From Frankia alni ACN14a (GTDB lineage: Bacteria; Actinomycetota; Actinomycetes; Frankiales; Frankiaceae), in NCBI RefSeq assembly GCF_000058485.1, contig NC_008278.1:6256962-6320961 (forward strand): a stretch of DNA of 64,000 bases. The letters are read 5' to 3'. Both the position numbers and the translations under genes were made by a program. Positions 4,983 through 9,294 of the stretch are shown here, in pieces; within the stretch, counting starts at the first letter, position 1, and every line of letters starts with the position of its first letter. The notes beneath the pieces are model-generated. The model did no database searches. It was not told the origin of the DNA and saw nothing but the letters and a program-made list of their open reading frames with translations.

Positions 4983-5900
4983 TCAGTCGAGGAAGGCGGT
5001 GAGCAGCAGCCAGGCGACGGGGGCGGTGCACAGCAACGAGTCCAGCCGGTCCATCACGCCGCCGTGCCCGGGCAGCAGGTTGCTCATGTCCTTGATGCCG
5101 ATGTCCCGCTTGAGCAGCGACTCGCCCAGGTCCCCGATCGTCGCCGTGCAGGCGGTCGCGAGACCGATCAGGACCCCCTGCCACGCGTGTGCTCCCAGCG
5201 GCCAGGCCAGCAGGATCCCCGCCACCAGCACGCAGCCCACCGCGGAGCCCGCGAACCCCTCCCACGACTTGCCGGGAGACACGCTCGGGGCCATCTTGTG
5301 GCGCCCCCCGGAGAGGACCCCCGCGGTGTAGCCGCCGACGTCACTGGCCACGACGGTGGCCAGGAAGGCGAGGACCCGCCAGCTGCCGTCGGATGGTTCG
5401 GTCAGCAACGCCGCGAACCCCGCCGGGAACCCCACGTATCCGGCGACGAAGGCGATGCCGCCCACGTCCCGGACCAGCCCTTCGGCCGGCCCGACGGCGC
5501 GCACCGCGACGCCGGCGCCGACGGTGGCGGCCAGCGTCAGCAGCAGGCCGGTCGTCCCCTCGACGTAGGCCACAGCCGGCATCGCGAGCGCCCCGGCGAC
5601 CAGCGGCACGGGCGGTACCCGCACTCCGGTGAGCCAGACCGCCCGGATCACCTCCCAGGTGCCCAGGGCGACGGCGACGCTGATGACGCCGACGAACGCC
5701 GCCCGCACGGTGAACAGCGGGACGAGAATGATCGCGCCGAGCAGGACGCCGACCGCGATCGCGGCCGGCAGGTTGCGGCCGGCGCGGGAACGGCGCGGTG
5801 GGACCTCTGCGGGCCCGGCGCCGCCGGCAGCGGCCCCGGTCGCTTCGGCGCTTCCGGAAGGCCCGCCGTCAACCACGGCGCGGCCGTCGACTGCCGTCAT
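4983..5900 (-). CDS. cdsA: Phosphatidate cytidylyltransferase (CDP-diglyceride synthase)
   Basis: Integral membrane enzyme making CDP-diacylglycerol from phosphatidic acid and CTP, the branch point of phospholipid synthesis. The 305-residue product has an Ala/Gly-rich N-terminus and several membrane segments. The family signature spans the C-terminal third: SPGKSWEGFAGS and GDLGESLLKRDIGIKDMSN followed by LLPGHGGVMDRLDS, with the Asp residues that bind Mg-CTP. ATG 5900 was chosen over 5972 because the extra N-terminus looks like leader sequence. It is the usual neighbour of frr and rlmN. Confidence 0.95.
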   Translation of the reverse strand: MTAVDGRAVVDGGPSGSAEATGAAAGGAGPAEVPPRRSRAGRNLPAAIAVGVLLGAIILVPLFTVRAAFVGVISVAVALGTWEVIRAVWLTGVRVPPVPLVAGALAMPAVAYVEGTTGLLLTLAATVGAGVAVRAVGPAEGLVRDVGGIAFVAGYVGFPAGFAALLTEPSDGSWRVLAFLATVVASDVGGYTAGVLSGGRHKMAPSVSPGKSWEGFAGSAVGCVLVAGILLAWPLGAHAWQGVLIGLATACTATIGDLGESLLKRDIGIKDMSNLLPGHGGVMDRLDSLLCTAPVAWLLLTAFLD

Positions 5901-6041
5901 GAATGCCTGTATCTCGACTATCTCGACAGAGGCGGACAGAACCGGCACGCATGCCCCGCCGTCGCCCTGCACGCGCCGCCACGATCATCTGGCTCGCATC
6001 GAGGGGTGGGCGGGCCGAACCGGCTCCGGGGGCGACGATGG

Positions 6042-6599
6042 TCAGACCGACAGCAGGTCCGCTTCTTTGAGGCGGAGGAGCTCGTCCACCTGCCCGACGT
6101 AACGGTGGGTCGCCTCGTCGAGGTCCTTCTCCGCCCGCCGGCCCTCGTCCTCACCGGCATCGCCGTCCCGGACGATGCGGTCGATCCCGTCCTTGGCATG
6201 ACGTCGGACATTGCGGATGCTGACCCGGGCCTCCTCCGCCTTGGAGCGGGCAACCTTGACCAGGTCGCGCCGGCGCTGCTCGGACAGCTCAGGGAAGACG
6301 ATGCGGATGATCGTGCCGTCGTTGCTCGGGTTGACCCCGAGATCGGAGTCGCGCACCGCCTTCTCGATCGAGGCCAGCGACGACTTGTCGTACGGGGTGA
6401 TGATCACCATGCGCGGCTCGGGGATGTGGAAGGACGCGAGCTGCTGCACCGGGGTCGGCGCACCGTAGTAATCCACCACGATCTTGGAGAAGACCGCGGG
6501 CGTGATACGACCGGTACGGATGTTCGCGAAGTCCTCCTTGGCGACCGAGACGGCCTTCTCCATCTTCTCCTCGGCATCGAGAAGTGTGTCGTCGATCAC
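6042..6599 (-). CDS. frr: Ribosome recycling factor
   Basis: Cytosolic factor that with EF-G splits the post-termination ribosome. The 185-residue length is exactly that expected of the family. Recognisable stretches are the N-terminal helix [17 protein letters not shown], the conserved [10 protein letters not shown], and the C-terminal [13 protein letters not shown] region followed by a charged coiled-coil helix. The GTG start at 6599 is preceded by GGAAGGA, a strong ribosome-binding site; longer upstream reading is not supported. In most actinobacteria pyrH lies directly upstream; here a 342-base gap without a gene separates frr from tsf. Confidence 0.97.
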
Positions 6600-6941
6600 C
6601 GGTTTTCCTTCCGTCCACTCTGACTCGCCGGCATCCGTCCGGCTCCAACAGCAGCCTGCCGGCCGGCCGCCCTCCGGACAGGGACGCCTTCCGACCGGCG
6701 ACATGACACGTGCTGCCCGTGCGCGCCAGGGCCCCGGCCCCGTCGATGATCGCACAACCGTGGCAATCAGTGTCCCGCACGAAGCCGCCCCCGCGGAGCC
6801 CGGGGGGACGCGCCACGCCGAACATGTCGAACCGTCGTGTTGCCGTCCCGGTACGTGACACCGGGCGCCGTCGCGGCGGTCTCTCGCGAACGCGAAACAG
6901 GCGGGCGGCCACTGTCCGCCCGCCGTCCCGTGTACCTGCGC
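6600..6941. other. Gene-free gap where pyrH is expected
   Basis: This 342-base stretch lies between tsf and frr. None of the reading frames in it encodes anything resembling UMP kinase. It contains the terminator hairpin described at 6900-6924 close to tsf; the rest shows no recognisable element. Because of that hairpin, frr and the genes after it probably have their own promoter here, but no convincing -35/-10 pair was seen. Confidence 0.6.
6900..6924 (-). terminator. Hairpin terminator downstream of tsf
   Basis: Perfect 9-bp inverted repeat GGCGGGCGG / CCGCCCGCC (6900-6908 and 6916-6924) with a 7-base loop, 18 bases past the tsf stop. On the minus strand it is followed by TGTTTC, a short T-rich tail. 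It would end rpsB-tsf transcription before frr. Confidence 0.6.
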
Positions 6942-7556
6942 TCAGGCCTGCCGGATGTTGAACCGGGAGAACCGGCCGACCTCGATCTTCTCGCCAAGCG
7001 AGGCGCCCGCCTGGTCGAGCAGGGCTCGGATGGTCACCTTGCCATCCTTCACCCACGGCTGGTCCAGCAGCACGCTGCTCTTGACGTAGCCGTTGACCTT
7101 GCCCTCGACGATCTTCGTAATCGCCTGCTCGGGCTTGCCCTCCTCGCGGGCAGCAGCCTCATAGATCTTGCGCTCGGCCTCGAGCACCTCGTTGGGAATC
7201 TGGTCCGCGGTGACGTACAGCGGGTCCGCGGCCGCGATGTGCTGGGCGAGGTCGCGGGCGAGCTGCTTGAAGTCGTCGGTCTTCGCCACGAAGTCCGTCT
7301 CGCAGCGCAGCTCGACGAGCACTCCGAGAGTCGGGGGCAACTGCGGGTCCGTCCGGTGCAGGTAGGACTCGACCAGGCCGTTGGCGGCGCTGCGCGCCGC
7401 GCGCTTGGCGACCTGTGCCTTGCCCTTCTCCCGCAGCCAGGACTTCGCCTTCTCGACGTCGCCGTCGTTGTCGACCAGCGCCTTCTTGACGTCGCTCATC
7501 CCAGCCCCGGTGAGCTCCCGGAGCTTGCGAATGTCGGCGGCTGTGATGTCTGCCAT
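6942..7556 (-). CDS. tsf: Translation elongation factor Ts (short form)
   Basis: Nucleotide-exchange factor for EF-Tu. The 204-residue product has the N-terminal UBA-like domain (ITAADIRKLRELTGAGMSDV), the core motif RCETDFVAKTDDF and the family-typical end VGRFSRFNIRQA. It is clearly shorter than the roughly 270-280 residues of Streptomyces and Mycobacterium EF-Ts and near the size of the Thermus form, so one dimerisation-domain repeat appears absent; the ends are intact, so it is not a truncation. It follows rpsB after 302 bases. Confidence 0.97.
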   Translation of the reverse strand: MADITAADIRKLRELTGAGMSDVKKALVDNDGDVEKAKSWLREKGKAQVAKRAARSAANGLVESYLHRTDPQLPPTLGVLVELRCETDFVAKTDDFKQLARDLAQHIAAADPLYVTADQIPNEVLEAERKIYEAAAREEGKPEQAITKIVEGKVNGYVKSSVLLDQPWVKDGKVTIRALLDQAGASLGEKIEVGRFSRFNIRQA

Positions 7557-7858
7557 GGTGCTCTTCTCGTCGGTGTCCGTCGGAATGCTGTCGTTGTCCT
7601 AGAGGCGTGGCGCGGTCCCAGAGGCGTGGCGCGGCGGGAGGGCCACCAGTGGCCGGCTACCGCCGCCGGTACTCCGCCCTCGCGCCCGCCGACCGGGCGC
7701 TCCAGGCCCTCAGGTCAGCGGGCTCCCCGCGTCGGCGATCTTGCGCCGCCTGCCCGGACCGCCCCGGGTAGCCGCCACGAGGTGGCCGCAACCGATACCG
7801 GCTGCCGGGCGGCGCGCGCCGGGCGCCACGAAGGCCCGGCGCGCGGAGCGACCCGAGG
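7557..7858. other. tsf leader / rpsB-tsf intergenic region
   Basis: A 302-base gene-free region. It holds a strong hairpin (7813-7845) next to the rpsB stop and a tandem 19-base duplication whose first 15 bases, AGAGGCGTGGCGCGG, are identical at 7601 and 7620. No promoter could be assigned. Confidence 0.5.
7813..7845 (-). terminator. Hairpin terminator or attenuator after rpsB
   Basis: A 12-bp perfect stem: CGCGCGCCGGGC-type arm at 7813-7824 pairs with 7834-7845, loop GCCACGAAG, 14 bases beyond the rpsB stop. There is no T-run after it, as is common for GC-rich actinobacterial terminators. It may attenuate read-through into tsf. Confidence 0.5.
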
Positions 7859-8734
7859 TCAGACCGCCGTACCGACCGCCGCGTCGGTCTGGGCCTCGGC
7901 AGCGGCCGGCGCCGGCTCCTCTGCTGGCTGCTCCTCGCTCGCCGCCGGCGCGGTGCCCTCGCCGCGCAGCAGCGCCTGCTCCCACTCGGCCAGCGGCTCC
8001 TCGCCTGCGGACTGCTCGGGCTTGGCGTCGGCGGCCTTGGAAGCACCGGCCCGCGCCATGAGGCCGTCCGCGACGGCGTCGGCCACCACGCGGGTCAGCA
8101 GCGCCGCGCTGCGGATCGCGTCGTCGTTGCCGGGAATCGGGTAGTCGACCTCGTCGGGGTCGCAGTTCGTGTCAAGGATCGCCACGACCGGGATGCCCAG
8201 CTTGCGCGCCTCGCCGACCGCGATGTGCTCCTTCTTCGTATCCACCACCCACACCGCGCTCGGCACCCGGCTCATGTCCCGGATGCCGCCGAGGGTGCGC
8301 TCCAGCTTCGCCTTCTCCCGGGTCAGCACGAGCTGCTCCTTCTTCGTGCGGACCTCGGTACCGCCGGTCACCTCGATCTCCTCGAGCTCCTTGAGCCGCT
8401 GGAGACGCTTGTAGACGGTGGAGAAGTTGGTCAGCATGCCGCCGAGCCAGCGCTCCTTCACGTAGGGCATGCCCACCCGGGCGGCCTGCTCCTCGATGGC
8501 CTCCTGGGCCTGCTTCTTCGTCCCGATGAACAGCACCGTGCCACCGTGCGCCACCGTCTCCTTGACGAAGTCGTAGGCGCGGTCGATGTACGAGAGAGTC
8601 TGCTGCAGGTCGATGATGTAGATGCCGTTACGCTCAGTGAAGATGTACCGCTTCATCTTCGGGTTCCAGCGCTTGGTCTGGTGCCCGAAGTGCACGCCGC
8701 TCTCGAGCAGCTGCTTCATGGTGACGACGGCCAT
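7859..8734 (-). CDS. rpsB: 30S ribosomal protein S2
   Basis: Small-subunit ribosomal protein. The 291-residue product starts [19 protein letters not shown] and has the family motifs [32 protein letters not shown] and the region [19 protein letters not shown]. The C-terminal 50 residues are an Ala/Glu/Pro-rich extension, seen in other actinobacterial S2 proteins. ATG 8734 is preceded by GAGGAG at good spacing; the longer open frame upstream is not coding. Confidence 0.98.
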
Positions 8735-9294
8735 GGCGCGTCGCTCCTCTCCGTCCGGCCGCGGCCGGACGCCTCGGTTGTGACGGCGCCGCCTGACGAC
8801 GGCTGCCCCTGACGCCCGGAGTGGTCGTGGCCGTCGCGATGCGACGGACCGAGGAGACCCTTCCGACGGCCTGGTGAGGACCCTCGGAAGCGGGCGTGCG
8901 AACTGAACCCGCGATGCGGGCCCTGCCGACCATGATACCCGGACCCGCGCCACGGCCCAGCGGAAAACCCGCCCACCCCGGCCGTCAAGATCATGTGCCG
9001 CCGCGGCATGCCCGCCGGCGGCGCCAGCCTTCGCCGATCTTCGGCCCGGCGGGGCGAACGGAGTGCAACGACCGCACAGCAGGCCGATCCGCGGGTCGAC
9101 GTCTCATCTCGAATCAATGCCGGAGCAAGTTATCCACAGCCATAAATCCCGGACTACCCAACCAGCGCAAAACATCGCACCGTGGAACCGGCCGATCCGC
9201 CGCTCTCGCGGACCGGCCAAGCGGCGGCCGGGATCGTCGCCCCGGACGCCACCCGGCCGCCGCGCCTCCCTCGACCCCGGAGGTTGACACCGCC
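8735..9294. other. Divergent intergenic region rpsB / M23 peptidase
   Basis: 560 bases between two divergent genes. On the minus strand a possible -10 (TATCAT, 8932-8937) lies about 200 bases before rpsB but without a good -35. A perfect DnaA-box match lies at 9130-9138. Nothing else is recognised; open frames here are extensions of the neighbouring genes. Confidence 0.5.
9130..9138 (+). promoter_or_regulatory. Isolated DnaA-box match TTATCCACA
   Basis: Nine of nine match to the classical DnaA box in an AT-richer patch upstream of the M23 gene. It stands alone, so it could be chance, a DnaA titration site or a regulatory site. Confidence 0.35.

Follow-up and report, generated by a model that had tools for sequence, protein, structure and literature searches.

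A divergent UMP kinase as the probable replacement for native PyrH in Frankia and in one clade of Pseudonocardia

The UMP kinase gene pyrH is usually regarded as an essential gene with one copy per genome and a set place in the rpsB-tsf-pyrH-frr cluster. Two actinobacterial lineages depart from this rule. Throughout the genus Frankia and in one clade of Pseudonocardia, the native copy is lost and a divergent homologue is the sole UMP kinase gene, while sister lineages keep the native one. We are confident that this pattern reflects the xenologous displacement of a gene that is normally essential, with the incoming UMP kinase probably bringing altered regulation.

The tsf-frr locus across Frankiaceae

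The window, a stretch of 64,000 nucleotides of the Frankia alni ACN14a genome that was analyzed as a whole, carries tsf and frr as direct neighbors (Table 1). The initial annotation had reported pyrH as missing between them, and this is borne out: the 342 bp spacer contains no PyrH, and a tblastn search with canonical PyrH against the equivalent spacers of 13 Frankia genomes gave a best E-value of 0.053 and revealed no relic.

Table 1. Features of the tsf-frr locus (window coordinates).
Feature	Position	Strand	Remark
cdsA, next gene after frr	4983..5972	-	presumed name
frr, ribosome recycling factor, 185 aa	6042..6599	-	NCBIfam cut-off passed
tsf-frr spacer, 342 bp	6600..6941	-	site of canonical pyrH in sister genera; no pyrH relic
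G+C-rich hairpin, 9-bp arms, directly 3' of tsf	6900..6924	-	terminator-like, without T-run
tsf, elongation factor Ts, 204 aa	6942..7556	-	TIGR00116 174 bits, cut-off 104
rpsB, ribosomal protein S2	7859..8734	-	start set by eye inside ORF 7859-8953; presumed name

Comparison of the same locus in related Frankia, as the initial annotation had proposed, places tsf and then frr without an intervening pyrH in 13/13 genomes of the genus (spacer 270-475 bp). The other six genera of Frankiaceae retain pyrH just upstream of frr in all 22 genomes, and the order tsf-pyrH-frr, correctly described beforehand as usual, is present in each of the 17 for which the frr locus was compared. In these 17 loci, the tsf-pyrH spacer measures 136-422 bp, and the pyrH stop overlaps the frr start by 4 bp in all but one. 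The surroundings are otherwise stable: the ORF at 7859..8734, which we take to be rpsB, has tblastn matches in the same order at the compared tsf-frr loci, and the presumed cdsA lies beside frr at 56 of 56 frr loci. The genome of the window is a single contig of 7,497,934 bases. Two of the remaining twelve Frankia genomes are likewise assembled in one contig; the distance between pyrH and frr is 748-855 kb in these three, and in the ten drafts the genes are on different contigs. Because all 13 Frankia share the arrangement, the missing gene is a trait of the genus and not an artefact.

The terminator claimed to follow tsf was upheld in part. A strong G+C-rich hairpin is present, and when the 13 Frankia spacers are aligned it can be made out by eye in most, though not in L062 and L063. 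However, it has no T-run, a terminator scan was negative, and folding of the 86-nt stretch is ordinary relative to shuffles (z -1.2). A promoter scan likewise gave nothing, and an Rfam search over 5900-9200 returned a single, sub-threshold match.

The Frankia spacer has no blastn match in the tsf-pyrH spacers of the sister genera, and a profile built from an outgroup block gives Frankia spacers a mean score of -10.0 against shuffled means that average -16.5 and reach -9.6, which is not above the shuffles overall. Two of the 13 spacers, L062 with 3.9 and L063 with 6.8, score above 3.3, the 99% level of the shuffles (shuffle maximum 5.9). A promoter-like pattern occurs 171-193 bp before frr in 7/13 Frankia spacers, and the block that holds it has columns partly conserved in the remainder; its derivation from the old pyrH promoter is putative, as is its function. 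In the 17 aligned spacers from the other genera (L066-L082), a GGCAGACT block precedes canonical pyrH without exception and is a possible promoter element.

The EF-Ts encoded in the window is short. Alignments of most Kribbella and Pseudonocardia EF-Ts sequences to it are broken into two separate segments, and Frankiaceae EF-Ts may for this reason lack an internal stretch.

PyrH2, the remaining UMP kinase of Frankia

A single gene in the genome of the window exceeds the TIGR02075 cut-off (282.8 bits versus 243.9), and the match spans positions 1-232 of the 233 in the profile. It lies at C1:7118836-7119534 on the minus strand, in an ORF at 7118773-7119567 (L001 1438-2232), about 855 kb from the tsf-frr gap; two further matches are partial and, at 38 and 22.5 bits, far below the cut-off. 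All 13 genomes of the genus have one gene above the cut-off, located away from frr. We refer to its product as PyrH2, our own name for UMP kinases of the BA1797/2jjx type.

Frankia PyrH2 is not an orthologue of native Frankiaceae PyrH: it shares 47-51% identity with the 22 native sequences and belongs to another clade. Identity within the genus is 92-100% (97-99% to Frankia torreyi, F. tisae, F. gtarii and others), and the native proteins are 85-96% identical to one native reference (six rows). Its gene is native-like in composition (GC 0.668 and GC3 0.876, compared with 0.665 and 0.897 for frr, the control being drawn from 7 of the 13 Frankia genomes). A pN/pS of 0.031 over 78 Frankia pairs establishes that pyrH2 is under purifying selection.

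The active site is conserved. Residues K15, R62, D77, T145, D146, and D201 (E. coli numbering) are unchanged in 138/138 distinct sequences, and D168 and D174 are each kept in 137, the exception in either case being one Firmicutes sequence. We take these residues, including T145, to be those of substrate binding and catalysis, and they are unchanged in all 12 distinct Frankia PyrH2 sequences. Profile score and catalytic residues thus identify Frankia PyrH2 as a likely bacterial UMP kinase that would be active in the cell.

The effector site is different. According to a study of S. aureus PyrH, it comprises R101, K109, R118, R119, R122, K126, and R128, with R122A having little effect and R101 and R119 being needed (PMC12847342). 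We placed the corresponding columns by a check on the S. aureus chain. The arginine at the R128 column (R130 in E. coli) is present in 51/51 canonical and in 0/87 PyrH2 distinct sequences, which have Ala, Ser, Gly, Tyr, or Cys instead. The R122 column holds His in 12/12 distinct Frankia PyrH2 sequences and Arg in those of Pseudonocardia. PyrH2 retains the residues of the R101 and K126 columns, and R119 is likewise found in the PyrH2 rows of the printed alignment. Given the mild phenotype at R122 and the need for R101 and R119, this combination of altered and retained residues leads us to predict that effector control in PyrH2 is probably changed rather than abolished.

Among solved chains, the nearest to Frankia PyrH2 is 2jjx, BA1797 of B. 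anthracis (305 bits); the next is from Xanthomonas (224 bits), and a chain from M. tuberculosis scores 206 bits. The same preference is seen in Paenibacillus, where PyrH2 scores 375 bits to 2jjx and 208 to the next chain; canonical Paenibacillus PyrH scores 207 bits to 2jjx and 355 to an S. aureus chain. An AlphaFold model of Frankia PyrH2 (mean pLDDT 84.3) adopts the fold of UMP kinases, and 2jjx leads the structural matches by E-value. The fold itself does not separate PyrH2 from canonical PyrH, since a TM-score of 0.85 is also obtained with canonical chains.

Pseudonocardia and other holders of PyrH2

A second group of genomes with PyrH2 as the only UMP kinase was found in Pseudonocardia. 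Among 62 genomes, 12 encode PyrH2 only, 46 canonical PyrH only, and none both, and four have no match at E<=1e-40; identity is 67-71% in the first group and 41-45% in the second. A tree of frr and cdsA that covers 26 of these 62 genomes unites the 12 in a single clade (100/100), within which G454 also falls. All 12 have tsf and then frr without pyrH (90-212 bp between), and in all 12 pyrH2 adjoins tatC, with helY visible beyond in 11. G454 likewise has no pyrH in the tsf-frr interval, and because its contig ends just after tatC, its pyrH2 may fall in an assembly gap. In G448 and G462, no frr was found and no pyrH2 lies beside tatC. In G447, one of the four genomes without a match, canonical pyrH is split in two frames (L233 2079-2782), through either sequencing error or decay. 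Frankia and the Pseudonocardia clade each have close kin that carry the native gene, and the two losses were therefore separate; the gains of PyrH2 could have come from related donors.

Elsewhere, PyrH2 accompanies a second gene. The best 80 of 182 relatives in a collection scan comprise 11 Frankia, 15 other actinobacteria (Streptosporangium, Pseudonocardia, Kribbella, and Kutzneria), and 54 Firmicutes, the majority of them Paenibacillus; two UMP kinase genes are found in Paenibacillus, Neobacillus, and others. Two genes are present in 20 of 24 genomes examined, from 12 actinobacteria and 8 Firmicutes; the other four, all Pseudonocardia, have one. By sequence, in a typing that left out matches under 215 aa, the additional gene of the 20 dual genomes is canonical, and it occupies the tsf-pyrH-frr position. 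A further 46 Firmicutes, all with two genes above the TIGR02075 cut-off, were typed by score only, with one gene at the PyrH2 place and the other at 331-345 bits; judging by the scores in the 24 genomes above, we took the second gene to be canonical. PyrH2 is thus joined by a second pyrH in 66/66 genomes (54 Firmicutes, 12 actinobacteria), with canonical status established in 20 of them.

Among records of mobile elements, sixteen from phages match, and as the best reaches 45.7% identity, none is of the PyrH2 type. Of 55 matching plasmid records, two reach 58%: one is a megaplasmid of Paenibacillus, the other a Nonomuraea record of 11.85 Mb with two matching places. The others are at 47% or less among the 30 of 55 listed. 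The viral contigs gave one partial match (50% over residues 142-243).

The genomic setting of pyrH2 in Frankia is distinct from that in the Pseudonocardia clade. In 11/13 Frankia genomes, the gene lies on the same contig as a ponA-yqeY-metallophosphoesterase block, 0.4-2.0 kb from its metallophosphoesterase gene; the distance is 11.7 kb in G002, and the two are on separate contigs in G012. The block is present without pyrH2 in four outgroup stretches of 14.5-17 kb. The commonest neighbor family of Firmicutes pyrH2 occurs at 16 of 54 loci, and hence there is no general operon partner. In both Kribbella loci that were scanned, out of six, a gene near pyrH2 encodes a ribosomal protection protein resembling Otr(A) (L119 7629-9593 and L121 7460-9445), with scores of 741 and 734 bits that fall short of the 900-bit cut-off; this is only a hint that pyrH2 may sit within a resistance cluster.

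Origin of the exchange and comparison with known systems

In a tree of 88 rows, hand-picked to include 15 of 54 Firmicutes PyrH2, 8 of 22 native Frankiaceae PyrH, and, from Pseudonocardia, 10 of 12 PyrH2 and 10 canonical sequences, PyrH2 and canonical PyrH are split by a long branch with support of 100/100. Frankia PyrH2 forms one clade (100/99), as does that of Firmicutes (99/95); Frankia and the other actinobacterial PyrH2 are grouped at only 75/79. AU tests reject neither a joint PyrH2 clade of Frankia and Pseudonocardia (p 0.217) nor one of Frankia and Firmicutes (p 0.299).

Taken together, these data suggest a model in which an ancestor of Frankia acquired, by horizontal transfer, a gene for a divergent bacterial UMP kinase of the BA1797 type, which settled near the metallophosphoesterase-yqeY-ponA locus. 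PyrH2 would have been tolerated beside native pyrH, as in present dual genomes, and would then have taken over UMP phosphorylation, rendering the native gene dispensable. Subsequent deletion of pyrH from rpsB-tsf-pyrH-frr would have left the spacer between tsf and frr, with frr transcribed from what remains of the locus. The Pseudonocardia clade would have undergone an equivalent change with insertion beside tatC. Gain before loss is presumed in this sequence of events.

Alternatively, an actinobacterial ancestor could have possessed both genes, with most descendants losing PyrH2 and Frankia and one Pseudonocardia clade losing the canonical copy. Given the 75/79 support and the non-rejecting AU tests, an ancient duplication with differential loss is compatible with the tree alone, which does not pin the donor, and many present genomes hold both genes. 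The native-like GC and GC3 of pyrH2 likewise count against displacement by a foreign gene. We nevertheless consider ancient duplication improbable. A class-wide search at E<=1e-75 found the PyrH2 type in only 14/393 genomes and 2/137 genera (13 Frankia and one more), and the neighbors of pyrH2 differ among Frankia, Pseudonocardia, Kribbella, Kutzneria, and Streptosporangium. Moreover, nothing pyrH-like lies beside tatC in 14/14 examined Pseudonocardia without PyrH2, where helY is found in the same stretch in 10 and not in 4.

Displacement also accounts better for the data than the idea that PyrH2 mainly serves some other purpose while UMP is phosphorylated in Frankia by an unrelated route. That PyrH2 is an additional copy in other hosts would fit such a purpose, but the protein retains its catalytic residues and scores above the equivalog cut-off, no other gene in the genome of the window reaches that cut-off, and in two lineages its presence coincides with the disappearance of canonical pyrH; we give this possibility very little weight. 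Of the explanations offered by the initial annotation, relocation elsewhere holds insofar as a whole-genome search finds one TIGR02075 gene at another locus. A simple move of the native gene is nonetheless refuted, as the distant gene falls in the other clade with full support and has the low identity to sister-genus PyrH noted above; replacement is the option that the data favor, since the sole copy is a PyrH2, in a clade apart from native Frankiaceae PyrH. An assembly deletion or false join at 6600-6941 is refuted in practice by the recurrence of the arrangement in all 13 genus genomes, three of them one-contig.

A broader proposal, which we hold tentatively and think somewhat doubtful, is that PyrH2 is a distinct mobile class with a remodeled effector site, free of normal GTP/UTP control or of a natural PyrH inhibitor. 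Its genes would move between soil Gram-positives, acting there as second copies of a backup or resistance type, and on two occasions PyrH2 would have ended up as the only UMP kinase of a lineage. Were this so, membership of BA1797 in the class would explain a reported conflict over the site of UTP inhibition, which is the active site according to work on B. anthracis and an allosteric site according to work on M. tuberculosis, as recounted in PMC12847342. As a PyrH2-type enzyme without the effector arginine R128, BA1797 offers a concrete reading of that disagreement. The same paper describes pyrH as an antibacterial target (PMC12847342). Our results warn that not all proteins named PyrH can be pooled as orthologues, and the two lineages with a swapped pyrH constitute natural experiments on core-gene displacement. 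Among the matches listed in a literature search that covered mostly freely accessible papers, there was no report of this displacement.

B. anthracis presumably also holds a canonical pyrH beside BA1797. In the printed alignment, BA1797 (2jjx) has GNGQPF and a Tyr at the effector-Arg column, like Firmicutes PyrH2. Published work cites it as a PyrH of Gram-positives, yet its residues in that alignment are of the PyrH2 type, and published comparisons may for this reason mix two subfamilies. The canonical enzymes of S. aureus (9uvk) and M. tuberculosis (3nwy) have their fold and catalytic residues in common with PyrH2 but form a separate clade in which the effector-site Arg is kept. The closest precedent for the exchange itself is orthologous displacement of single-copy core genes, described in a paper whose main text makes no mention of pyrH, Frankia, or uridylate (PMC3151239). 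There, as proposed here, a transferred homologue replaces a core gene and the native copy is lost. The Frankia case differs from that account in that the newcomer belongs to a deep subfamily, resides far from the old locus, and has taken the place of the native gene in two lineages (PMC3151239).
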